This document shows positions 120-34,059 of a stretch of 34,409 bases of DNA, piece by piece. Every line of letters starts with the position of its first letter. Position 1 is the stretch's first letter. Below the pieces are notes generated by a model that was not told the origin of the DNA, did not search any database, and saw only the letters and a list, made by a program, of their open reading frames with translations. The stretch is from Chitinispirillaceae bacterium (lineage in GTDB: Bacteria > Fibrobacterota > Chitinivibrionia > Chitinivibrionales > Chitinispirillaceae): positions 1 to 34,409 of the forward strand of contig JAFGIN010000059.1 in the NCBI GenBank assembly GCA_016929595.1, read 5' to 3'. The position numbers and the translations under genes were made by a program.

Positions 120-324
120 AAATTTCAATTCGGAGTACTTGAAAAGGATGTATTGTTTACAAAAAATACTTTCAATTTTCATATCCTCCTCACTCCTTAC
201 TCCTCTATACTCCTTGGAGCTGCAGACCATTACAATTTTCCAGAAAAATAAAATGTACAGTGACAAAAAATCTCATTGCGACGTCAGGTACATAGGGTAT
301 TTTATCAAAAAGGAACATTTAAGA
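120..324. other. non-coding leader upstream of the AraC-type gene
   Basis: A reading frame is open from a GTG inside the repeat array through this stretch, but its translation looks non-coding and precedes a better start with a signal sequence at 325. A pyrimidine-rich segment around 185-220 repeats ACTCCT-like words. An AAGGA at about 311-315 is a reasonable ribosome binding site for the ATG at 325. I see no clear promoter. Confidence 0.5.
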
Positions 325-1845
325 ATGGTTAAATACGCAAGCATGTCAGTTCTTTTTATCATTGCGATAAGTTTTGCAACAGAAGATTTTGATTCTGTTC
401 GTCTCTCTCTGAAGTTGCTGGAGAAAGCAGAAACAAAGAAGGACAGTGTTACAGCGGTAACGAAAGTGATCATAGCTGATAGTGCAGGCTTTATGAAACC
501 TCCTGTTCTTACAGTTCTTAAAAGCAGCTCTGTTAGCCTGGAGATAAAACCTTCACTTACTGTTGATTCGGTAATGGCAGTTGTACGGTATGGAGGTGCA
601 ATGGTAGATACCGTCGGAACAAAATCCCGATCACCTTATGAGTTTAACTGGGATTGTTCAGATGTTTCAGATCAGGACCAGATTCATCTTCAATTCGGGT
701 ATACATTGTTCGCTGATTCATTTCATACAATTGTCTCTCCACCCTTACCTCACCGGTGGATGCTTATGCGGGAAACAAGGAAAAGTCGCAAAGTACTCCA
801 TGCACATCAGATAACAAGGCCGGATACGATCTGCGTTGATGGAAACCTTGATGACTGGAAAGGGATTCGAAAAACAAGGCTGGGTAATGCAGGAAATGCC
901 AGAATTTGCTGGACTATAGGGAAAGTGTACGTTGCAGCATTTGTAAAAGATGCCTCAGTGTGCCCCTCCGATTATCTTGAACTGCACTTTGATATGTACA
1001 ATGATAAGAGCGATTTTGCGGGGAAGAATCATCGCAGCATTCGGTTTGGTCCCCGCAGTAGAGCACTTTGCTTTACGGTGGAACTGAATGATTCAGGCTT
1101 TACGCCGGCAGATAGTGTAACCTTGCTTATAAAAGAGCAGATGGAGTGGCGTGCTGTGGTGAAAGAGGATGGATACATCATTGAAGCTGCAATTCCTTTT
1201 TTCACTCTTTCCGATCTTATGTATCCATCAATGAAATCAGGTTTCGATCTGACTGTTGTCGATGTTACTCACAACAGGGACACCGTATTCTATTCCTGGG
1301 GGGGGAACAAAGATCTTTTCTGCAGGTACACTCCTTCCCGATGGGGAACGCTTAGGCTTCATCAGGCAATGGTATCACTTCATTATATTATGCTCTTCAG
1401 CGCTCTATTTTTTGTTGTTGTGATATGCTCGATTATCGCATGGCTTTTGTACAGGCATTATATCGACAGCAGGATCGATGATATTGAGGAGAGAAGGTAT
1501 TCCGAGACCATGGAGAAAATAGTAACCTGCATAAAAGAGAATCTGTCTGATCCGGATCTCTGTTCATCGGTAATTGCCGAATTACTCTCCCTGGACAGGG
1601 AATCTGTCGAACAAACGGTTACAATGGAAGCTACCTGCAGTGTCGATTATCTCATTTTAAAAGAGCGTATTAATTGTTCAAAAAAGCTTCTTTCTGTCGA
1701 GACGTATGTGATTGAAACGATTGTTAAAACGGCAGGTTTCAGGGATAATGAGGCATTTGAAAGGGCTTTTAAAGAGATTACCCGGACTACTCCGGAAAAA
1801 TATTATGAACGGAAGAGGCTTGATGCACTTGAGGAGCAGAATTGA
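325..1845 (+). CDS. Membrane-anchored AraC-family regulator with CBM9-like sensor domain
   Basis: A predicted one-component transmembrane regulator of 506 residues from ATG 325. That start follows AAGGA and opens with a hydrophobic signal/anchor (residues 1-17). Residues about 30-160 look like an Ig-like beta region. Residues about 165-345 resemble a CBM9/DOMON-type carbohydrate-binding module, beginning with ICVDGNLDDW around 168-177. A strong transmembrane helix covers 354-380. Residues 393-500 form an AraC-type double helix-turn-helix with the typical ending GFRDNEAFERAFKEITRTTP. The inferred topology is an outside sensor and a cytoplasmic DNA-binding domain. The gene lies 146 bp upstream of a GH8 glucanase on the same strand, so control of that enzyme is plausible but unproven. 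The AraC assignment is firmer than the CBM9 one. Confidence 0.8.
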   Translation: MVKYASMSVLFIIAISFATEDFDSVRLSLKLLEKAETKKDSVTAVTKVIIADSAGFMKPPVLTVLKSSSVSLEIKPSLTVDSVMAVVRYGGAMVDTVGTKSRSPYEFNWDCSDVSDQDQIHLQFGYTLFADSFHTIVSPPLPHRWMLMRETRKSRKVLHAHQITRPDTICVDGNLDDWKGIRKTRLGNAGNARICWTIGKVYVAAFVKDASVCPSDYLELHFDMYNDKSDFAGKNHRSIRFGPRSRALCFTVELNDSGFTPADSVTLLIKEQMEWRAVVKEDGYIIEAAIPFFTLSDLMYPSMKSGFDLTVVDVTHNRDTVFYSWGGNKDLFCRYTPSRWGTLRLHQAMVSLHYIMLFSALFFVVVICSIIAWLLYRHYIDSRIDDIEERRYSETMEKIVTCIKENLSDPDLCSSVIAELLSLDRESVEQTVTMEATCSVDYLILKERINCSKKLLSVETYVIETIVKTAGFRDNEAFERAFKEITRTTPEKYYERKRLDALEEQN

Positions 1846-1879
1846 AATCGAAAGTCTAATCTGAGCGATCTGTTTTTGA

Positions 1880-1933
1880 GTTTCAAAAATAAAAAAGTTT
1901 CAAATTTCATTATAAAAATTCGTATTTTTATAA
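1880..1933 (+). promoter_or_regulatory. Candidate regulatory region of the GH8 gene (direct repeats plus hairpin)
   Basis: Two direct copies of GTTTCAAA start at 1880 and 1897, 17 bp apart. They are followed by a perfect inverted repeat, TTATAAAAAT (1910-1919) and ATTTTTATAA (1924-1933), with loop TCGT. A weak sigma70-like pair, TTCATT (1906-1911) and TATAAA (1929-1934), spaced 17 bp, overlaps it. The GH8 start is 58 bp further on. Direct repeats are common AraC-type binding sites, but no binding is shown; the hairpin could also end transcription from the upstream gene. Confidence 0.3.
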
Positions 1934-1991: not shown

Positions 1992-3398
1992 ATGATGAAA
2001 AAACAGCGGTTGATTTTATTTGTCTTGATTGCACTTCTTTGGGCTGGAGAATCATTCAGTCAGAATCCTAAATACCCATATCCTCTGAATATCAAATATC
2101 GATATGGCTTTCTTCCGGCAAACATAAAGCCAGCTCTGGACAGATGGTATAAAAATTACAAGGCAAACAAACTCCTGCTCGATTGTAGTGGAGGGCTGAG
2201 AACCACTTCCGATGTAGATGGTCAAACGTTAGTTGAATCGATGGGATGGGCGATGATTATCGCGGCATATATGGGTGACAAGGTATCATTTGATGGATTA
2301 TACAGATATTACAAAAGCAAAATTCAGGGACATGGCATGATGGCCTGGAAAACAACATGTAATGGCGTAGTTGATGGTGGCAGTGCAAGTGATGGAGATC
2401 TTGATGTCGCTTTTTCGCTGCTTGTGGCAACATGGCAGTGGGGGGACAGCTATAAGTCTGAAGCGAATAAGGCAATTTCAACTGTCAAAAAACTGATCAT
2501 TGACTGTGGCGGCACATCGGTTATTGCAGGTGGCATGTACAGTAACAACAATGTTTACGGCGGCTGCCAGGAGACTGATATTTCATATTACTCACCTGCA
2601 TTTTTCAGGTGCTTTGCAGATTTTACAGGGGATAATACCTGGAAAAAACTTGCTGATGATACCTATACTGTCCTGAATAATGGGGCAAATAAGTCAACTG
2701 GACTTGTGCCTGACTGGCAGGCGCTCTCCGGTGGTCCGGCAGCAAACGGAAGAAAACATACGTACTCATTTGATGCGTCACGTGTTCCCTGGCGAATCGC
2801 GCTCGATTACCTCTGGAACGGTAATGAAAAGGCAAAAACCTGGTGTACAACAATCTCAAACTGGGCAAACAAAACTGGTCCTAAAAATATCAAGGACGGG
2901 TATAATCTTGATGGCTCAGTATTCGGCACTAACCACAATATGTCTTTTGTCGGAGGATTTGCAGTTGCCGCAATGTGCAACAATCAGACTGTTGCGGACG
3001 CGTTTGGTTCTGAAGTGTCAAAAATGAATTTCGACAAATTCTGGTATCATGGATTCCTCGGTAACTGTTATATGCTTGCGATGAGCGGAAATATGTGGCA
3101 GATTAAAGACACTGGTCTTGCCGTAAAAGTAGCTGTAAACAGCAGGCAGTCTGCTCTCAGGAGTGCTCCGATAGCGGTTGCACTACATAAAAATCGTCAG
3201 ATCGAACTATCCGGCGCTCTGGAAGGGTGTGAAGTTTTCCTTACAACACTTCAGGGAAGAGTGGCTGTAAAGAATGTTGTCACTGCAGGAGAGAAACATC
3301 TTATCGATATATCATCATTGCGTAGTGGCTGTTATATGCTCTCCATTTATGATATACACGATAAAATAAGTCTGCAACAGGTTATTTCGATTTACTGA
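1992..3398 (+). CDS. Secreted glycoside hydrolase family 8 (endoglucanase-like) with sorting-type tail
   Basis: A 468-residue secreted hydrolase of the GH8 clan (endo-beta-1,4-glucanase, lichenase, chitosanase or xylanase). Residues 1-23 are a signal peptide with likely cleavage after SFS. E82, in the motif VESMGWAM, fits the family's general acid. Residues 132-146 (ASDGDLDVAFSLLVA) match the GH8 signature with its conserved aspartates. The (alpha/alpha)6 domain extends to about residue 375. The last 70 residues form a small beta domain ending DISSLRSGCYMLSIYD, which resembles type IX (type A) sorting tails and suggests surface display or secretion. A G-rich run precedes the tandem ATG start. 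Substrate cannot be decided from sequence alone. Confidence 0.92.
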   Translation: MMKKQRLILFVLIALLWAGESFSQNPKYPYPLNIKYRYGFLPANIKPALDRWYKNYKANKLLLDCSGGLRTTSDVDGQTLVESMGWAMIIAAYMGDKVSFDGLYRYYKSKIQGHGMMAWKTTCNGVVDGGSASDGDLDVAFSLLVATWQWGDSYKSEANKAISTVKKLIIDCGGTSVIAGGMYSNNNVYGGCQETDISYYSPAFFRCFADFTGDNTWKKLADDTYTVLNNGANKSTGLVPDWQALSGGPAANGRKHTYSFDASRVPWRIALDYLWNGNEKAKTWCTTISNWANKTGPKNIKDGYNLDGSVFGTNHNMSFVGGFAVAAMCNNQTVADAFGSEVSKMNFDKFWYHGFLGNCYMLAMSGNMWQIKDTGLAVKVAVNSRQSALRSAPIAVALHKNRQIELSGALEGCEVFLTTLQGRVAVKNVVTAGEKHLIDISSLRSGCYMLSIYDIHDKISLQQVISIY

Positions 3399-6147: not shown

Positions 6148-6876
6148 TTAGTCGGATTGCCTTAAATAACTCAAAAGTAATGATCTCAATCCGGTGTTTC
6201 CCTCAAAGGAGAGATACTTGAAATGAAGAGTATCTAAAAGTTCGGATACCTCCTCCTGCGTATCAAGGAGGTACGTGGGAATATCATCTTCGTTTATATA
6301 TTCAGGCTCACACCGGGAGGGGTCAGAAAAACTGAAATAAATGCGGCAGGTGATCGGGCGGACAGGGTATATAGAACATCTTCCATTGTTGTCAAGAAGC
6401 GGGCACGGTCGTTTAAATTGATAGAAAACAGCTAACAGAAGGTCTGTCTGATCGAGCTGATCATCAGGAGTCTGGGACACATCGGGATGAGACAGCATTG
6501 TTTTTTCAAGGTGTTCCAGTTGCTGCAGATCTTTTTCACATGTTTTAATAATTTCAGGAATACGTTCAGGAATGTTCTTTAAAATATAATCATAGATGAT
6601 TGCAGCTTCGAAAGAATTGACATCCTCTACCCAGTGATTACAGCAGCAGCAACAACCGCTTCTGCAGGTAACAGTCATCTGGTTATGTTCGAGTATGGCA
6701 GCCTGGTACTGATCAAACAGTTTAAGACAGGACGAGAAAGGTACTCTGAATGAAGGGGCCAGGCAGTTATCGGATTTGAGTACAATAAGCTCCTTTAAAA
6801 GAGCGACCATCCTGGTATGGATTGCAACTCCCTTTGCGGGTACGGTTAACAACGGCTTATTATGAGGGCTGTCCAT
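6148..6876 (-). CDS. YkgJ-type cysteine-cluster protein
   Basis: A 242-residue soluble protein of the YkgJ family, thought to bind zinc or an iron-sulfur centre; no member has a well-established role. Cysteines lie at 71, a run at 75-79, and at 158, 167, 177 and 189. The second group sits in the typical CPLLDNNGRCSIYPVRPITC arrangement. Five cysteines in a row at 75-79 is more than the family's usual CxxCC. The start lies 8 bp after the stop of the upstream barrel gene and has no clear ribosome binding site, so translation is probably coupled. Confidence 0.8.
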   Translation of the reverse strand: MDSPHNKPLLTVPAKGVAIHTRMVALLKELIVLKSDNCLAPSFRVPFSSCLKLFDQYQAAILEHNQMTVTCRSGCCCCCNHWVEDVNSFEAAIIYDYILKNIPERIPEIIKTCEKDLQQLEHLEKTMLSHPDVSQTPDDQLDQTDLLLAVFYQFKRPCPLLDNNGRCSIYPVRPITCRIYFSFSDPSRCEPEYINEDDIPTYLLDTQEEVSELLDTLHFKYLSFEGNTGLRSLLLSYLRQSD

Positions 6877-6884
6877 TATAACTA

Positions 6885-8363
6885 TTACTTTTCAGGTAGT
6901 TTGACATAAAGATCACTGAAATGGACTGAAATTCCCGCCTGTATAATCGGATCGAAATTGTACTTTTCAGTTTTAATATTATTTTTGTTCTTTTTCCATG
7001 AACCACCGGCACTTATCCAACCGTCAACGTAGTCTCTGAAATACCCCCGGGCGTTAAGTGAAAAAGAGAACGTTTTTTCCTTAATGTCGGGCAGCGTATC
7101 AAATGGTAAGCCGGGAAAATGTGTGTGGTCGTTCCACTGGCTGTTGGGATTATTATTACCTTTTTCACTATATGAGACCCTGGCATCTGCAAGCCAGTAA
7201 TTACATCCGATAACCTGAGCACCCAGAGTGAATCGGGTCAGATCATTTTCGGGATATCCCAGACTTTTCCTAAGGTAAATATATCGCTCGCCATTGTTGG
7301 AGTTGTTATCTGGAACCGTATACATCCACTCTGACAACGTGGTAAATTCACTGTAGATCGTATGTTTCAGCTTAAATGCAAACGGATCATACCAGTAAGC
7401 ACCGCAATCTATACCCCAGTGCGCAGGCTCTTTGTCTGTTTCAATTTCGTTATCCACCTGAAAATCATCAAATGCAAGCTGTCCTTTGAGAGATACTTTT
7501 TTAGTAAAGGGGTGGACATCCCAGTTAAACGCAAGCATCAGATTCCCATCACCCTCCTGATTGGTATTGGTGACCGTATAAATTGAGAACGGGTTAACAT
7601 ATTGAAGGTCTGGAAATGACTTATCTCGTGTAAAAAGGACTGTTTCAGTTAATCCTGCCGTAACCCACTCACCGAACATAAGTGAAAGTGAATGGGCTGC
7701 AAAAAATCTGTTCCAGACTGTGCCGTTATCTGTATCCCAGTTTGTTTTTTGATGGGGAAAAGCGGCAACTAAATGACGGAATTCAAAAACTGATGAATGT
7801 ACCTGCCACTCAAGAGCATCGAATGTATAGGGATTTGTTGAAAGAACAAGACTCCTGTCCGGAAAGGGACCCCAGTTGCGGTTAAGTCTTCCAAGTCTGA
7901 AAAAGCCATATTTCCAATCTAATTGACAGTATGCCTCCTCAATCCGACCGTGGGCACCTCTCTGGCGGTGCCCTGGATAATAGGTATCAAATTCAAATCG
8001 GGAGTCTATATCAGCGGTTTGACGGATAGAAAGGTTGTAAAAACGGATTTCATTGAGCAGTTCGCCATGTAAAAAAGAATTTTCATATCCCGCAACAGCA
8101 GGTTCAAGATAACCGAACTGGAATGCCGGTTCAACAATCAGATGGTTACGATTTAATTGTGAGTCACTGAACCAGATAAGTGAATCGAAAACCGGAGCGG
8201 AACTTAAATCATCCCAGAACATGAGAGATGGAGAACTGGTGCGGACATAACCGCCTGTTGCTGCTGCAAAGAAGAAGGGCTTTCGCCAGTTATCATACTG
8301 CACTGCCAAAACTATTGACACAAGAATAAAAATGTAAGAAACGAACCTGAAATTTAACTTCAT
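6885..8363 (-). CDS. Outer-membrane beta-barrel, Wzi-like capsule assembly protein
   Basis: 492 residues with an N-terminal signal sequence (about 1-20), followed by alternating polar/aromatic strands typical of a beta-barrel. The segment FRLGRLNRNWGPFPDRSLVLS, found in the first half, resembles the Wzi family, whose members anchor capsular polysaccharide at the outer membrane. The protein ends in an amphipathic strand (GISVHFSDLYVKLPEK). It sits between a polyprenyl glycosylphosphotransferase and a YkgJ-type gene, on the same strand as a GT4 enzyme, which supports a polysaccharide-export role. A plain outer-membrane porin of unknown function is the alternative. Confidence 0.65.
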   Translation of the reverse strand: MKLNFRFVSYIFILVSIVLAVQYDNWRKPFFFAAATGGYVRTSSPSLMFWDDLSSAPVFDSLIWFSDSQLNRNHLIVEPAFQFGYLEPAVAGYENSFLHGELLNEIRFYNLSIRQTADIDSRFEFDTYYPGHRQRGAHGRIEEAYCQLDWKYGFFRLGRLNRNWGPFPDRSLVLSTNPYTFDALEWQVHSSVFEFRHLVAAFPHQKTNWDTDNGTVWNRFFAAHSLSLMFGEWVTAGLTETVLFTRDKSFPDLQYVNPFSIYTVTNTNQEGDGNLMLAFNWDVHPFTKKVSLKGQLAFDDFQVDNEIETDKEPAHWGIDCGAYWYDPFAFKLKHTIYSEFTTLSEWMYTVPDNNSNNGERYIYLRKSLGYPENDLTRFTLGAQVIGCNYWLADARVSYSEKGNNNPNSQWNDHTHFPGLPFDTLPDIKEKTFSFSLNARGYFRDYVDGWISAGGSWKKNKNNIKTEKYNFDPIIQAGISVHFSDLYVKLPEK

Positions 8364-8428: not shown

Positions 8429-9805
8429 TTAATACGCGCCTTCCCGTTTAAAAAGTATCAGAAATGTCTTGGTAATAATCTTGATATCTTCCCAGATACT
8501 CCAATTGTCAATGTATTTTAAGTCAAGTTTAACGATTTCATCAAAGTTGGTGATTGCATTTCTGCCGGATACCTGCCACATGCCAGTGATTCCGGGACGG
8601 ATACTTATTCTGCGGTGGTGCCATTTCTGATATTTAGAGACTTCATCCGGGGTAGGAGGGCGAGTACCGACAAGTGACATTTCACCTTTGATAACGTTGA
8701 TAAACTGTGGAAATTCATCGAGACTGAGTTTACGCATGAATTTTCCGACAGACGTTACCCGAGGATCATCTTTCATTTTAAAAACAGCACCATCACATTC
8801 ATTGTGCGTCATCAACTCCTCTTTGCGTTTTTCTGCATCATTGGCCATCGATCTGAATTTGTATATGACAAAACGCTTTCCGTTTTTACCTACCCGTACC
8901 TGTTTGAAAAAAACGGGACCTTTTGAAGTCAACTTAATGGCAAGTGCAAGAAAGGGATACAATATAATAAGTATAGTAAGGCCAGCAAGAGCACCACACA
9001 CATCGAAAATACGTTTAAAAAGGATCTGATCGGGATCGAGTTCAACAGTATGGGAAACTAATGTGGATCGCTGCAGAAACTCATGGTACTCCCAGCGGGC
9101 ATAGAACGTGGCTCCTGAAATGTTCAGAAAAATACGTGCCGGCCTCCCCATCTCCTCACAGATCTGCAGGTACATGTCAACAGGATACCCTTCAGTGGTA
9201 ATTTTACGCGGGATACAGAAAAAAACCTCTTCAACATAATAGCTTTTTAAAATCTCTTCGAATTCCGCCGGAGAAATACTGAGATCGAGCTTCCTGATAA
9301 TTCGTAATCCCCATTCCGGATGGCAGCAGATCTCCTGATTAACCTGCGCAGCATCACGCCCTCTGCCAACAAGGATGATCGGCGTAGTGTTGAGGTTGTT
9401 CCTTCTGATTTGCGCGATAACCTGTTTTATAAGTAGTTTTTCGATCAAAATTAAACAGAATGCAATCAATGCAAACGTAAGATACAAGAAACGACTGTTG
9501 TGGTTATCCGGAAGCAGGTACAATATTGCAGCACCAAGAAATCCTGCTGAAACAAAGATCATGACAATTCGCCACAGCAGGCCACTCATCCAGTTGAAAT
9601 GCAGTACTGAAAAAAGAGAGCGGGTCCAGGCAAAGTAGAGATAAAATCCCAGAAAACCTGCAAACATCACCCAGTAATTCATAACTGGCAGCAATTCTTT
9701 ATGATTGCCAACAAGAAAATAGGCAGCGTAAAATGCAATAAAAACAAGAAAACAGTCGAGTACTGCTATGGACTGTTTAACAAATGAGGAGTGTTCCTTG
9801 AGCAT
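8429..9805 (-). CDS. Exopolysaccharide polyprenyl glycosylphosphotransferase
   Basis: A 458-residue inner-membrane enzyme that transfers a sugar-1-phosphate from a nucleotide sugar to undecaprenyl phosphate, the first step of a polysaccharide repeat unit. Four hydrophobic helices lie within residues 10-125. A Rossmann-like CoA-binding domain follows (TPIILVGRGRDAAQV, 141-155). The C-terminal bacterial sugar transferase domain begins at KRIFDV (264-269) with a further membrane segment. Conserved catalytic-domain motifs include YKFRSM (315-320), SLDEFPQF (361-368) and SLVGTRP (377-383), the last with Thr where many members have Pro. The length is normal for the WbaP/EpsE class. AAAAGG precedes ATG 9805. 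Which sugar it uses cannot be read. Confidence 0.93.
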   Translation of the reverse strand: MLKEHSSFVKQSIAVLDCFLVFIAFYAAYFLVGNHKELLPVMNYWVMFAGFLGFYLYFAWTRSLFSVLHFNWMSGLLWRIVMIFVSAGFLGAAILYLLPDNHNSRFLYLTFALIAFCLILIEKLLIKQVIAQIRRNNLNTTPIILVGRGRDAAQVNQEICCHPEWGLRIIRKLDLSISPAEFEEILKSYYVEEVFFCIPRKITTEGYPVDMYLQICEEMGRPARIFLNISGATFYARWEYHEFLQRSTLVSHTVELDPDQILFKRIFDVCGALAGLTILIILYPFLALAIKLTSKGPVFFKQVRVGKNGKRFVIYKFRSMANDAEKRKEELMTHNECDGAVFKMKDDPRVTSVGKFMRKLSLDEFPQFINVIKGEMSLVGTRPPTPDEVSKYQKWHHRRISIRPGITGMWQVSGRNAITNFDEIVKLDLKYIDNWSIWEDIKIITKTFLILFKREGAY

Positions 9806-24334: not shown

Positions 24335-25984
24335 ATGCGACGAACTGCTCTGTTTTTCCTGTTAGGGACTGCGCTTGTTGTTTCAGTGTGTACTCCACCG
24401 CCGGTATCGAAAGGGGAGGCTGGTAAGGCTGTATCACCAATTATTAAAAAAGGCGATACGACGACCTATTCAATTGAATTTTATAATCAATCCGAAAAGA
24501 GTCGTTTTCTGCATTCATTCAAAGAATTTATGAATACGTACCCTTTTTCTGCAATGGCTGCTGACAGTACCTATAGTCTCATTCGAATTAAGATACTGCA
24601 CGATGAAGCAATGCCACAGGGTGATTCTATTACTTCGGTTCAGAGGGGATTTTTCTTTGAAGACAACATTGACGGTGGAATAGAACTGGCCGATAATGAG
24701 CTGCTGCCAGCTACTGATTCTGTGATGCAATTCCCTTTTTCACCATGGGACACCATAGTTCCTCCGCTTGGAGGTGTGTTACGTCTCTATTCACCACGAG
24801 CCGCATTTGACCAGACGATATTGCCGCTGGTGCTGCTCAAGGGGGATACCGTTTTTTCAGATACATCGTATTTTTCGTTGGCAGATACCTCACCGGTAAA
24901 GGTAACCATTCGTCTGAAAGACAGAATTGTAAATGGCAGAAAAAGAGCGATAAGTGCGCTCGATCTGATTCAGCAATGGACCTCTTTTGTTAAGGAAAAT
25001 CCGGCGCAGGGTCAGGCGATGTTTCGCGGTGTTCAGGGCTTGATTGATTTTATCAACGGCAGGGAAGCGTTAATCCGTGGTTTTAATGCACCCGATCAGC
25101 GTACCGTCCAACTTCGTTATGATACTCCGCAGCAACATGCAGTTGAGAGATTGAAAACACCGCTGATCATGGTTCCAAAACTGTTGCTGGGAAATTATTA
25201 TGAAGGTATGGTTTCAGGAGAGACGGTATTGTTGCCTAACACCGAAACCTTCGGTACCCGAAAGGCGTTTCTTGATAAAATTATACTGAAAACAGGTGGG
25301 GATCCAAATCCTGTTTTGTCGTTTTCACTAAACAAGTATGATGCGCTTCTTCTTAATGCACTCAATGATATTAACTATGTACGCTCAACACTTTCTATGA
25401 AAGCGGACCTCTATAAAGTCGGCTCAGACCGGTATTTTATCTCGTGCCGGATACCGGATCAGCAGTTGAGAAAAATGGTACGATCAATTGTCAATGCTGA
25501 ATTGTTACTTAAAAATTATCTCAAAGTTGAAGGTGAAGTGATAAAAGCGGTTGGATCTGATACAATTGTTCTGGAGAACATGCCTGTTCTTCCACCGCAG
25601 AACACCAAAGGGTTTGGTGCGGTAAAAATACTTTTCAGAAAAGATGATCAGGTCTCAAAGAGCATTGCGGAGAAACTCATGGCAGACTGTTCGGCAAAGG
25701 GTATTTCAGCGGCCCTTGATGGTAGGGATCCATCAGGGTACGAACGAGGACTTGTATCTGGAGAGTATGATTGCGCTGTAGGATGGGTCAGCCATTCGGT
25801 TGTATCTAACAATAATGAAAAGCTGCAGCTTGCATCTATGTGGTTTGATAACGAAACTGATGAAATGCTGCGGATTACAGGGCTGCGGGAAATACCACTC
25901 TTCTCTGTAAATACATACCTGTGCTGTAGAAAAAATGTACGATTGTACAGGGATGAACTTGAAGGCGTTTATTTAACAAAGTGA
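24335..25984 (+). CDS. Divergent solute-binding family 5-like lipoprotein
   Basis: 549 residues with an N-terminal export signal and Cys19 in VVSVC. The -1 valine is unusual for a lipobox, so lipid attachment is uncertain. From about residue 180 the order of motifs follows family-5 binding proteins: VTIRLKDRIVNGRKRAISALDLIQQW resembles the family's signature region, then FNAPDQRTVQLRYDTPQ, and late on SGEYDCAVGWVSHS. Similarity is weak and the N-terminal 150 residues have no match I know. There is no permease or ATPase gene beside it. AGGGA precedes the ATG. It may feed a distant importer or act as a sensor. The PstS-like gene follows after 37 bp. Confidence 0.6.
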   Translation: MRRTALFFLLGTALVVSVCTPPPVSKGEAGKAVSPIIKKGDTTTYSIEFYNQSEKSRFLHSFKEFMNTYPFSAMAADSTYSLIRIKILHDEAMPQGDSITSVQRGFFFEDNIDGGIELADNELLPATDSVMQFPFSPWDTIVPPLGGVLRLYSPRAAFDQTILPLVLLKGDTVFSDTSYFSLADTSPVKVTIRLKDRIVNGRKRAISALDLIQQWTSFVKENPAQGQAMFRGVQGLIDFINGREALIRGFNAPDQRTVQLRYDTPQQHAVERLKTPLIMVPKLLLGNYYEGMVSGETVLLPNTETFGTRKAFLDKIILKTGGDPNPVLSFSLNKYDALLLNALNDINYVRSTLSMKADLYKVGSDRYFISCRIPDQQLRKMVRSIVNAELLLKNYLKVEGEVIKAVGSDTIVLENMPVLPPQNTKGFGAVKILFRKDDQVSKSIAEKLMADCSAKGISAALDGRDPSGYERGLVSGEYDCAVGWVSHSVVSNNNEKLQLASMWFDNETDEMLRITGLREIPLFSVNTYLCCRKNVRLYRDELEGVYLTK

Positions 25985-28448: not shown

Positions 28449-30203
28449 ATGTCTGAATTTGAACGATATTATGAAGAGGAGCTGCGCTATCTGTATGAAT
28501 CGGGGCGCGAGTTTGCGCGGGCACATCCTGACAGAGCTCAATTTTTAAATATTGATGCTGTTGGAGATCGTGATCCTTACGTGGAGAGGCTCTTTGAGGG
28601 TTTTTCGTTTCTTACAGCTCGTATTCGTGAAAAACTTGATGATTCTTTTCCGGAACTTACTGAGGGACTGGTTAATCTGCTCTGGCCTCACTTTCTGATG
28701 GAGTTTCCCTCACTGGCGATTGCTGAATTCAGACCGCGTAAAGGGCATCTTCAGGAAACAAGAGTTCTTCCGAAAGGTTCAAGACTGTTATCAAATCCGG
28801 TTGGGCCGGAGTCTGTAGCATGTAAATTTGTTACCACATATGATATTCAGCTCAGTCCTGTCAGTTTCATGTCAATTGATAAGAAGTCCGATACCCGGAG
28901 GAAAGGCGCTCTTTCATTTAATTTCCAGATCGATCCGGGTGTTAAATGGCAGAATCTTAAAATAGATCCCTTGCGGATGTATATTCATGCGGAAACGCCG
29001 ACAGCGCTTGCTGTGCACGAAATTCTTACCCGTCATGTGGTTCGGGCTGAATTGTCTTTTGATAATGGAAGAGCTGTTGTGCCGCTGGATCCATCCATGG
29101 TAATAAGTGCTGCGGGTTTTAAAAAGGAAGAATCGCTTCTTCCGCATGATTCGCGGGGGTTCTGGGGATATGCACTGCTGCTTGAATATTTTGTATTTCC
29201 CGAAAAGTTTTTCTTTTTTGATTTTAATGGCCTTTCGGCCGCTCCCATACTCGATCCGCCTCCTGCACGTTTTTCAATAAACCTCTATTTTGACTGCGAT
29301 TTTCCTCATGATAAACCGTTCGGGCAGGAAATTTTCAAGTTGCACTGTTCTCCAATAGTCAATCTTTTCAAAATTGATACTGAGCCAGTTGTCAACACTG
29401 GCAGAATGACCGAATATCTTGTCAGGGCTGATGCATCAGATTCCCGGTCGGTTGTTCACAGTCTTATCTCTGTTGCATCGGTTGATAGAAAAACCGGTGA
29501 ACGGTTTGTATACGAACCTTTTTATCAGTTCAGAAATATTGGAAAGAAAAATGCCAGGACCTTTACATCCCATTATCGGGAAGGGTTTAATGGAAAACGG
29601 GAATTGTGTATTTCTATCGGAGGCAGCCAGCTTGATGCAAACAGTGTACTGCATGAAGAGAATCTCTCTATTGAAGCGTACTGTACAAATGGGGTGCTTC
29701 CACGTGATGAGATCCGGGAGGGAATGATATCAAAGCCCGGAGTGGATTTTCCCGACTATGTGATGTTTACTAACATTACAAGGCCGACACTGCCGTCAGC
29801 ACCTCCGCCCAATGAAGATTACTTGTGGACGTTCCTGTCGCATCTTGGCGCGACATATGCATCATTCGGTTCACCGGATAGACTCAAGAGCTTTTTGAAA
29901 TTATATGAATGGTCAAGGAGTGAAGGGCGAAACCGTCGGATCGAGGCGATCAGTGATGTCGCCCTGCAGCCGGCAGAGCTGTTTTATAAGGGAGGCATTG
30001 TCCGCGGAATCGAATTTGTAATTGCCATTGAAGAATCAGGGTTCTCGGATGGAAATGATATGCATCTTTTGGGTGAAGTGCTTCGTGAATTTTTTGCACA
30101 ATATATTTCAATCAACTCCTTTCTTGATCTGATCATTGTCGCTCGTCCATCAGGCGTGACTATGCGGTGGAATTCATTAAGAGGTGTCAAATGGCCAGTC
30201 TGA
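28449..30203 (+). CDS. tssF: Type VI secretion baseplate protein TssF
   Basis: 584 residues, a typical TssF (VasA/ImpG) length. The family start YYEEELRYLYESGREFARAHP (7-27) is clear, and VERLFEGFSFLTARIREKLDD and LTEGLVNLLWPHFL follow as expected. TssF forms the wedge of the baseplate with two TssF per TssG. GGAGGG precedes the ATG closely. The gene overlaps tssG by 13 bp, so the partner proteins are translated together. Confidence 0.95.
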   Translation: MSEFERYYEEELRYLYESGREFARAHPDRAQFLNIDAVGDRDPYVERLFEGFSFLTARIREKLDDSFPELTEGLVNLLWPHFLMEFPSLAIAEFRPRKGHLQETRVLPKGSRLLSNPVGPESVACKFVTTYDIQLSPVSFMSIDKKSDTRRKGALSFNFQIDPGVKWQNLKIDPLRMYIHAETPTALAVHEILTRHVVRAELSFDNGRAVVPLDPSMVISAAGFKKEESLLPHDSRGFWGYALLLEYFVFPEKFFFFDFNGLSAAPILDPPPARFSINLYFDCDFPHDKPFGQEIFKLHCSPIVNLFKIDTEPVVNTGRMTEYLVRADASDSRSVVHSLISVASVDRKTGERFVYEPFYQFRNIGKKNARTFTSHYREGFNGKRELCISIGGSQLDANSVLHEENLSIEAYCTNGVLPRDEIREGMISKPGVDFPDYVMFTNITRPTLPSAPPPNEDYLWTFLSHLGATYASFGSPDRLKSFLKLYEWSRSEGRNRRIEAISDVALQPAELFYKGGIVRGIEFVIAIEESGFSDGNDMHLLGEVLREFFAQYISINSFLDLIIVARPSGVTMRWNSLRGVKWPV

Positions 30204-31132
30204 GTGAACGGCTCCAGCAGGAGTATCACCAGTTCAATTTTTTCCAGGCTGTATCCCTGATCGAAGAGTATTTTCAGAGTCAGGGAGAACGCAATCCTAT
30301 TGACACGGGAAAAATACGTTTTGTACCGGATCCATCGATATCATTTCCGCCTAATGATATTGCCGGGATCAGGGATATACAGGGCGTATATGTCTTGATG
30401 CTCTCTTTTATGGGGTTGGTAGGTATTACATCACCGCTTCCCGTCTATTTCTCAGAGTATTTGTCGAGGCGACAGGAGCACGCTCCTCCATTATATAACT
30501 TTCTGACCATTTTCAATCACAGAATTCATACGCTTTTTTACAAATCCTGGAAAAAGTACCATTTTATTAAAGCGTTTTCAACTGATGGTTCCGACCTTTT
30601 TTCAAGAAATATAGGCAGACTTACCGGGTGTACCAGTGAGACACAGTCACCGGAGCAGTTGCGGTTGCTGGCATATTGCGGTATTCTGGCCGGATTGCGA
30701 AGGGGGCCAGCTGCGCTCGAGGCTTTGCTAAGTGATTACTTTGGAAACATTCCGGTAAGAATAGAACAGTTTTTTCCCCGGTGGACGCCGTTACGTGAAA
30801 AAACGAAGCTGGGAATTGATAGTCGGCTGGGAATGACCGCTTTGTGCGGGACATCATTCTATGATGTTGCCGGTAAATTCAGGGTGGTAGTGGGACCGCT
30901 AAAACGTGAAATTTACGAAGAATATCTTTGCGGCTCTGATAACATAGGGATCATGAAATCAATTATAAGAGACTATATTGCAGATCCGCTCGATTTTGAT
31001 ATCGAGGTTCAGCTTCAGAGTATGGAGTTGATACCGGTTCGTCTTGGATGGGATACTTCACGATTAGGAACAACATCCTCGCTTGGAAAGTCATCATCCA
31101 GATCGGAAATTGAATCCGTGATAATAGAATAG
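30191..31132 (+). CDS. tssG: Type VI secretion baseplate protein TssG
   Basis: 313 residues from ATG 30191, chosen for GAGGTG just upstream and the family-like start (LQQEYHQFNFFQAVSLIEEYF). The TssG (VasB/ImpH) pattern continues with LTIFNHRIHTLFYKSWKKY and the late LCGTSFYDVAGKFRVVVGPL. It is slightly shorter than many TssG. It partners TssF in the baseplate wedge. An insertion-like palindrome separates it from clpV. The C-terminus ends in a Ser-rich tail (TTSSLGKSSSRSE). Confidence 0.93.
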   Translation: MASLSERLQQEYHQFNFFQAVSLIEEYFQSQGERNPIDTGKIRFVPDPSISFPPNDIAGIRDIQGVYVLMLSFMGLVGITSPLPVYFSEYLSRRQEHAPPLYNFLTIFNHRIHTLFYKSWKKYHFIKAFSTDGSDLFSRNIGRLTGCTSETQSPEQLRLLAYCGILAGLRRGPAALEALLSDYFGNIPVRIEQFFPRWTPLREKTKLGIDSRLGMTALCGTSFYDVAGKFRVVVGPLKREIYEEYLCGSDNIGIMKSIIRDYIADPLDFDIEVQLQSMELIPVRLGWDTSRLGTTSSLGKSSSRSEIESVIIE

Positions 31133-31139
31133 TTGACAG

Positions 31140-31231
31140 TGATGTCCTCCTTCGCCTCAGTCCCTTGGTCCCCCTCTCCATTTACCAATGGAGAGGGGGA
31201 CCAAGGGACTGAGGCGAATGGAGAATGATGT
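31140..31231. mobile_element. Palindromic element with 32-bp perfect stem and 6-bp duplication
   Basis: Arms 31151-31182 and 31187-31218 are perfect 32-bp reverse complements around loop TACC. CTCC (31147-31150) and GGAG (31220-31223) extend the pairing past a one-base bulge. The direct repeat TGATGT flanks it at 31140-31145 and 31226-31231, as in a target-site duplication. The inner core is shared with the palindrome at 19647-19675. No coding capacity. It lies between tssG and clpV within the operon and would form a very stable RNA hairpin. Confidence 0.8.
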
Positions 31232-31329
31232 GAATTCATTAGATACGATATTCTCTTTTCGTCTCACATAGAGTGAATAGAGACTATGTAACAATACCTT
31301 TTAGATTAACACAAAGGAGAAAAACACCC

Positions 31330-34059
31330 ATGATTGTCAAAGACATCAGATCGTTGCTTCAGACGCTCAATGATACCTGTACAAAAGTGTTGGAACGTGC
31401 GGTTGGTGCATGTGTGAGCCGTGGTCACTATGAAGTACGCTGGGAACATCTTTTCATTGAGTTTCTTGAATTGCAGCAGAATGATCCCGTTCTGATCCTG
31501 AACCATTTCAATATCGATACTGCTCATTTACGCAAAACTATACAGAAGGATCTTGAGTCGTTCAAGAGCGGTAATACAGGGAAGCCTTCATTTTCTCCAC
31601 CTTTCCTTGAAGCGATCGAGAGTGCCTGGAGTTATGCATCACTGAATTATGGTTTGCCAAAGGTAACTTCAGGGATATTGTTTATAGCTGCTCTGGAAAA
31701 AAGTCAGATGGCACTGAGCCTTTCATCAGAGTTTCTCCGTAAAATTGATATAGAGACATTAAAAAGCAATTTTCTGAAAATTGTGGCATCATCGGTTGAA
31801 TACAGCGGCGGTGGGTCAGCTGGAAAACCGGGTGAAGCATCAGGAATGACTACTGAGGCCGGGCTTGAGATTCTTACGCAGTTCTGTACAAATTTCACCG
31901 AACAGGCTAAAAGCGGAAAAATAGATCCGATACTGGGGCGTGATGATGAAATTCGTCAGGCGCTTGATATTCTTAACCGTCGCCGGAAGAACAACCCGAT
32001 TCTAGTTGGTGAAGCTGGAGTCGGAAAAACTGCAATCGTCGAGGGGCTTGCGTTGCGTATCGCTTCGGGTGATGTACCTGATCACCTTAAAAACGTTGAT
32101 TTATGGGGTCTGGATCTCGGATTACTCCAGGCGGGAGCGAGTGTAAAGGGCGAATTTGAAAAAAGGCTGAAAAATGTCATAGACGCTATAAAAAACAGCC
32201 CGAAGCCGACCATACTGTTTATCGACGAAGCCCATACGCTTATCGGTGCCGGCGGGTCGGCTGGACAGAATGATGCTGCCAATCTGCTCAAACCTGCTCT
32301 GGCGCGTGGTGAGCTGCGGACACTTGCCGCAACAACCTGGTCGGAATACAGAAAATACTTCGAAAAGGATCCTGCGCTTGCCCGACGGTTTCAGCTTGTA
32401 AAAATAGATGAACCTGATGAAGAACGCTGTTCTATCATGTTGCGTGGTATCGCTAAAAGTTATGAGAAGCATCACAAAGTTCGTATCTCTTACGATGGTA
32501 TTAAAGCGGCGGTTTCGTATTCTCACCGGTATATCTCGGGCCGTCAGCTTCCTGATAAAGCTGTTGATGTTCTTGATACTGCATGTGCACGGGTTCGTAT
32601 GAGTCAGGCCACAAAGCCGGCATCACTGGACATTGCGGAACGTGCATTGCTTAACGCTGAACTTGAGCTTAAAACTTTGACCAAAGACCTTGATGCAGGA
32701 CTTCCTGTTGCCGAAGAAATTATTATTGCGTGCAAAGAAACAATAGAATCGAAAAAGGAAGAGATCGCCAGTCTTACTGAAAAGTGGACAAAAGAAAAGG
32801 ACCTTGCTGCAAAAGTGATACAACTTCAGGATGAACTTGTGAAGGCCCGTGAGGATAAGGCCGGGGAATCGGTTCTTGACGCAAAGAATAAAGAGGTTGA
32901 AGCTGCAATGGATGAGCTCTCTGATGCTCAGGGTGAGTATCCGATGGTATTTTCACATGTATCGGCACAGGTGTGTGCGCAGGTCATTGCCGACTGGACC
33001 GGTATACCAATCGGATCGATGGTCAGGGATGAAGCAAAATCGCTCCTGGAGATTGAAGACAAGTTGGGTGAACGCGTGATCGGCCAGGACGCTGCAATTG
33101 GTGAGCTTGCTAATACAATCCGTTCATCAAAGACCGGTATGGGTAATCCTGACGCACCGATTGGGGTATTTCTGTTTACCGGACCATCGGGGGTTGGAAA
33201 AACGGAGTGTGCACTTGCTCTTGCGGATTCACTTTTTGGTGGCGAGAAATTCATGACGGTTATTAACATGTCGGAATACCAGGAAAAACATACCGTTTCA
33301 CAACTCAAAGGTTCTCCACCTGGATATGTCGGTTACGGTGAGGGGGGGATCCTTACCGAAGCGGTTCGTCAGAAACCATATTCGGTTGTCATTCTTGATG
33401 AGGTTGAGAAAGCGCATCTCGAGGTAATGAACCTGTTTTATCAGGTGTTTGACAAAGGATTTATGCGTGATGGTGAAGGGCGTGAAATCAATTTCAGAAA
33501 TACTTTGATTATCATGACATCGAATCTGGCATCAGATGTTATTGTTGAACTGTGTTCAGATGATGAAAAAGCGATTACTGATAAGGAGCTTGTTGATGCA
33601 ATTCGTCCGAGGCTGAGCGCGCATTTTCAGCCAGCCCTTCTTGGCAGATGTAAAATTGTTCCGTTCCGTCCGCTTTCACTGGAGGTGATGCGTGGGGTGG
33701 TTGCGTTGAAACTTGACAAAATTGCTCAGCGTATCCGTAAAACCCATGGTATCACATTCAGCTGTTCACCGGATCTTATCGATCAGATTGCGGAGAACTG
33801 TACGGCTGTTGAAGCTGGTGCCCGCAATGCTGATGCTGTTATCGATCAGTCACTGCTTCCGGGAATCTCCCGTCAATTACTGATGCATCTGGGAGAAGAG
33901 GGCAAGGAATACACACGTCTTCATATAGGAGCTACTGAAGAGGGCGATTTCGAGATTATCTTTTCGGAAGAAGGTGATGTTGAGGATGAGGACGCGACAT
34001 CGATTATTCCAAAAGAGGAGATGGATGTCGAAGAACAGACAGAGATGGAAGGCGCGTAA
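31330..34059 (+). CDS. clpV: Type VI secretion sheath-recycling ATPase ClpV (TssH)
   Basis: 909 residues from ATG 31330, chosen for AAAGGAG upstream; a frame open from 31273 is less likely. It is an AAA+ unfoldase that disassembles contracted TssB/TssC sheaths. The N domain (1-150) binds sheath. The first ATPase domain has Walker A GEAGVGKT (227-234) and Walker B LFIDEAH with D299/E300. A coiled middle domain spans about 400-530. The second has GPSGVGKT (618-625) and [10 protein letters not shown] with D690/E691. The T6SS context distinguishes it from ClpB. The last 35 residues are strongly acidic, an unusual extension. A terminator follows the stop. Confidence 0.94.

Follow-up and report, generated by a model that had tools for sequence, protein, structure and literature searches.

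The window, i.e. the whole stretch of 34,409 nucleotides analysed here (contig JAFGIN010000059.1 of a Chitinispirillaceae bacterium), carries close to its start a gene for a transmembrane AraC-type regulator. The encoded protein is probably a one-component transcription regulator that spans the inner membrane once (bitopic); it resembles TfoS of Vibrio, but has a different sensor and drifting targets. It is a member of a conserved family, designated group A, in one branch of polysaccharide-degrading bacteria. The domain order, the single hydrophobic helix and, in the predicted structure, the CBM9 and AraC folds characterize a single clade across Chitinispirillia. More tentatively, we propose that in this membrane AraC family of one phylum a changed CBM9 fold that has lost its sugar clamp senses a single conserved ligand in the periplasm, and the DNA output is rewired in each lineage, the reverse of what is seen in a second group (group B). 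This contrast in which domain is conserved was absent from the initial annotation of the window; we consider it the most interesting feature, and it is directly testable. The regulator gene contains the following elements:

310 to 314, plus strand: ribosome-binding-like AAGGA in the sequence, 10 bases before the ATG at 325
325 to 1845, plus strand: gene for the transmembrane AraC-type regulator, an open reading frame of 506 amino acids plus stop, group A member
325 to 381, plus strand: signal peptide by sequence, residues 1-19 (helix 5-16 in the model), with putative cleavage after SFA
460 to 774, plus strand: Ig-like beta-sandwich domain, residues 46-150, from the predicted model and alignment, with a near-invariant DQDQ.HLQFGY motif
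790 to 1371, plus strand: CBM9-fold domain, residues 156-349
1393 to 1449, plus strand: transmembrane helix by hydropathy, residues 357-375, inside a continuous helix of the model
1504 to 1815, plus strand: AraC-type double helix-turn-helix, residues 394-497

A search of the source genome (6.6 Mb) yielded one group A copy. An alternative GTG start at 109, in the same frame, would give a longer reading frame, and sits within tandem repeats. When the regulator was scanned against Pfam, CBM9_1 (PF06452) matched residues 187-346 with 43.0 bits (E 5.9e-11, cut-off 23.4). HTH_18 matched residues 417-495 with an E value of 1.2e-7 and 32.3 bits, which is 1.3 bits below the cut-off of 33.6; the group A orthologue L063 scores 37.7, above the cut-off. 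With E values up to 10 admitted, all 21 group A members match both families, and the Ig-like domain gave a weak Big_7 match in one orthologue.

In an AlphaFold2 model computed from 14 sequences of group A (pLDDT 78.3, pTM 0.52), residues 46-150 form an Ig-like sandwich and residues 156-349 a CBM9 sandwich; a continuous helix spans residues 349-389, and the AraC-type helices follow at 394-505. Structural alignment of residues 156-349 gave Z scores of 20.7 to 7nwn and 20.3 to 1i82, two solved CBM9 structures, with an rmsd of 2.2-2.4 across 167-169 residues. The prediction thus agrees with a CBM9/DOMON-like fold of the middle region, and a failure of this region to fold in such a way, which had been named as the outcome that would speak against the initial annotation, did not occur. 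Residues 390-506 align with the AraC-type domain of AraT (6swi) with a Z score of 17.2 across 116 residues, which confirms the C-terminal double helix-turn-helix of the initial annotation.

Only one segment of the protein is strongly hydrophobic (residues 357-375, mean hydropathy 2.81), and it is directly followed on its C-terminal side by Arg 377, 383, 390 and 391. Together with the signal peptide, this would place the helix-turn-helix in the cytoplasm, as judged from hydropathy and the positive-inside rule. The proposed order of signal peptide, CBM9-like module, one membrane helix and C-terminal AraC domain is thus upheld by Pfam, hydropathy and the model. All the named domains are present, but the Ig-like domain at about 46-150 had been overlooked. 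Likewise, the suggestion of a sensor outside and a helix-turn-helix inside holds for the latter by inferred topology, but the sensor side has to be corrected to the periplasm. Fibrobacterota are diderms, and the ectodomain would thus meet only ligands that reach this compartment.

AraC-type proteins that sense polysaccharide products from the membrane are already known, and the rarity of the membrane-bound form had been overstated. In Vibrio, the chitin sensor TfoS is such a membrane AraC-type protein and responds to a polysaccharide breakdown product, chitin oligosaccharide; it likewise combines a periplasmic sensor, which is needed for function, a membrane anchor and an AraC-type DNA-binding domain in one chain (PMC7564644). 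The TfoS sensor is related to hybrid two-component proteins, whereas here it is composed of Ig-like and CBM9 folds; a periplasmic domain of the hybrid two-component type was absent from the Pfam scan of the regulator, which gives CBM9_1 and HTH_18 only. The hybrid two-component systems of Bacteroides (PMC3404733, PMC11253607) also join a membrane sensor and an AraC-type domain in one chain and are connected with polysaccharide genes, but the Pfam scan shows the present protein to be without their histidine kinase, receiver and propeller domains. ToxR and CadC are bitopic one-component regulators as well, with an N-terminal winged helix instead of a C-terminal AraC double helix-turn-helix (PMC5936718). 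Our literature searches found no paper on a membrane AraC protein with CBM9, and no description of the Ig-CBM9 sensor, its clamp loss or the family across Chitinispirillia.

Full-length group A orthologues were found in 20 of 40 relatives (Chitinispirillia/Fibrobacterota), and a partial one in 1 further genome. Among 168 genomes of the phylum, group A is limited to three families (f1, f2 and f6). The titles of the homologous records name Chitinispirillaceae, Chitinispirillales, Fibrobacter sp. or Fibrobacterota, and one peptide-pattern scan of GTDB genomes returned 13 loci, all with Fibrobacterota-lineage titles. Group B is a paralogue with the same layout that is also widespread, and the source genome has its own copy (L038:9227-10672). 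Group C is a distant set, again with the same layout, that occurs in several copies per genome (G166, G167 and G153). In the tree, groups A, B and C are each set apart by a branch of high support (100/100, 100/100 and 100/96). Group B genes are divergently oriented to two conserved genes, one for a 345-aa protein and one for a protein with receiver, GAF and HD domains, in clusters of 12 loci; in the source genome this arrangement spans L038:5790-10672.

The domains of the two paralogous groups differ in their conservation. Within group A, sequence pairs are on average 47.0% identical in the Ig-like domain, 42.9% in CBM9 and 28.8% in the helix-turn-helix, whereas the corresponding values in group B are 37.4%, 32.0% and 44.9%, and the second helix-turn-helix alone reaches 60.6%. 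The Ig-like domain of group A is thus as conserved as the CBM9 domain, and of the 28 invariant residues 27 are found outside the DNA-binding domain. Since the recognition helices lack conservation among the orthologues, the DNA-binding domain might be decaying or serve another role, so that the protein would mainly be a helix-anchored periplasmic binding protein. We consider this very unlikely, because HTH_18 is still matched by every group A member, the model shows a confident AraC fold, and dN/dS of the DNA-binding domain is 0.18-0.37 in four close group A pairs, which indicates purifying selection and rules out neutral decay (for L063/L067 the value is less certain, since dS exceeds 1, and the pair L059/L060 is saturated). 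By sequence comparison, the DNA-binding domain is retained while its recognition surface appears to drift, as would be expected if the targets were few and lineage-specific.

Species from the environment and from termite guts share the conserved ectodomain, but its pocket differs from that of the carbohydrate-binding CBM9 modules. CBM9-2 grips sugar between Trp71 and Trp175, and CBM9.3 between Tyr89 and Trp191; CBM9.1 of CkXyn10C, which has no such clamp, did not bind any natural carbohydrate that was tested (PMC8280721). CBM9-2 of Thermotoga Xyn10A (1i82) and CBM9.3 of Caldicellulosiruptor (7nwn) share the fold of residues 156-349, but in group A the clamp is lost and the module is fused to a regulator instead of an enzyme. 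By sequence alignment, and not by superposed coordinates, the Trp71 loop is deleted in 21/21 members, the Trp175 position has lost its Trp in 21/21 (it holds Arg or, depending on the alignment, Cys, Asn or Thr one residue earlier), and Glu77 of CBM9-2 is kept in 20/21. In group C, the first clamp position is aromatic in 9 of 11 sequences of the alignment. Sensing of polysaccharide, as initially suggested, is thus not supported for a normal CBM9 site, as the aromatic clamp is missing throughout group A. Because the residues around the pocket are conserved, the alignment suggests that the group A ectodomain does bind some ligand, although not in the textbook CBM9 manner. CBM9-fold proteins include heme and other proteins, which counts against the reading that we prefer; the heme protein 2ivf_C matches the CBM9-fold part with a Z score of 14.4, a likeness of fold only as far as heme binding is concerned. 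A CBM9 match need not mean that a protein binds plant polysaccharide, nor does a nearby hydrolase have to be its target.

We infer every step beyond the domain content in the following mechanism. The Ig-CBM9 part would lie in the periplasm and bind a putative ligand common to the whole group, such as an oligosaccharide or a piece of envelope glycan, in a pocket around Glu219, His221 and Arg334 in which this Glu and conserved His/Arg residues are retained, without the usual aromatic clamp. Binding would alter the pairing or the position of the continuous helix 349-389, and this change may in turn alter the DNA grip of the cytoplasmic double helix-turn-helix, probably as a dimer, along the lines proposed for TfoS. 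The targets would vary between lineages.

According to the initial annotation, the target would be the adjacent glucanase gene:

1879 to 1904, plus strand: exact direct repeat AGTTTCAAA, start-to-start distance 17 bases, between regulator and GH8, a candidate operator only
1992 to 3398, plus strand: GH8 glucanase gene (Pfam E 8.8e-44) with a weak T9SS-like C-terminal tail

A glucan sensor (for plant or other glucans) that directly switches on this GH8 gene in the source organism would represent a recent rewiring. The gene starts 146 bases downstream of the regulator on the same strand, with two copies of AGTTTCAAA in between, and the branch of the window protein (0.98) is the longest among the five sequences of its clade. 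However, GH8 is a neighbour at 0 of 40 other homologous loci, and the source genome has 13 GH8 matches. The closest GH8 homologues in relatives (62% identity, genomes G006 and G008) are found on other contigs than the regulator (C100 versus C85 and C65 versus C353, respectively), and relatives that have both genes carry them on different contigs. The missing aromatic clamp also speaks against such a sensor. Group C genes often adjoin secreted carbohydrate-active genes (GH44, GH30, PL6-like, PcRGLX, Sde182), which would fit this explanation, but genes 4-8 places away also include GH1, GH30-type and T9SS-tail proteins, so that a clear enrichment next to group C was not borne out. The AGTTTCAAA direct repeat occurs once in the genome, with weak statistics, and a regulon could not be derived from it, as 3 genome matches at no more than 2 mismatches compare with 2 for a control pattern. 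We thus regard a direct GH8 switch as unlikely and reject GH8 linkage as a family trait. The absence of GH8 at the other loci, the location of its homologues on other contigs and the recurrence of a different gene run (see below) indicate a local link: GH8 probably lies next to the regulator by chance, and although the regulator could act on it locally, it is not the ancestral target of the family.

A sigma-70 promoter scan gave no signal above that of shuffled sequences. A near-identical stretch, TATTCCTGGGGGGGGAA / TATTCCTGGGGGGGAA, is found at window positions 1291-1307, inside the regulator gene, and at 1972-1987, just before the GH8 start codon. Positions 1-115, at the very end of the contig just before the regulator, are a tandem array of the 7-base unit GGTGAAA that shifts to CGCGAAA variants.

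The run of genes that does recur next to group A is also present in the window:

6148 to 6876, minus strand: gene for a YkgJ-like CxxCxxCC protein, convergent with group A genes and conserved next to them
6885 to 8363, minus strand: gene for a Wzi-like protein of the outer membrane (26.0 bits, below the cut-off of 30.1), conserved neighbour
8429 to 9805, minus strand: bacterial sugar transferase gene of the exopolysaccharide-initiating type, conserved neighbour

These genes are convergent to group A in clusters of 10, 10 and 9 loci, respectively, with the window included, and adjoin it in three bacterial families. In the window, GH8, DUF362 and GT4 genes separate them from the regulator, at a distance of 4.3 kb. 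Such neighbours, and the conservation of the ectodomain across habitats, would be consistent with a regulator that monitors the envelope or exopolysaccharide of its own cell and is tied to the Wzi-like and sugar-transferase genes. We consider this quite unlikely, as the neighbours stand tail to tail with the regulator and therefore share no promoter with it, and as the other group A neighbours are housekeeping genes (NadA, CoaE), so that the gene order may be plain inheritance. A TfoS-like regulator with drifting targets is the reading that we prefer.

Fibrobacterota are strong cellulose degraders, and our literature searches found no description of how their polysaccharide genes are controlled; groups A, B and C are a concrete candidate for this role. 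Two deep lineages add to this candidate set many further membrane AraC proteins whose ectodomains are unrecognised. At L124-L140 (genomes G166 and G167), many longer proteins of about 570-780 aa combine a membrane helix and HTH_18 with ectodomains that match no Pfam family, and represent an expanded set of membrane AraC regulators. As to the rest of the contig, window positions 24335-25984 hold a 549-aa open reading frame with no convincing Pfam match, and positions 28449-34059, at the opposite contig end, hold the type VI secretion genes TssF and TssG together with a ClpV-like double AAA ATPase identified by Pfam.
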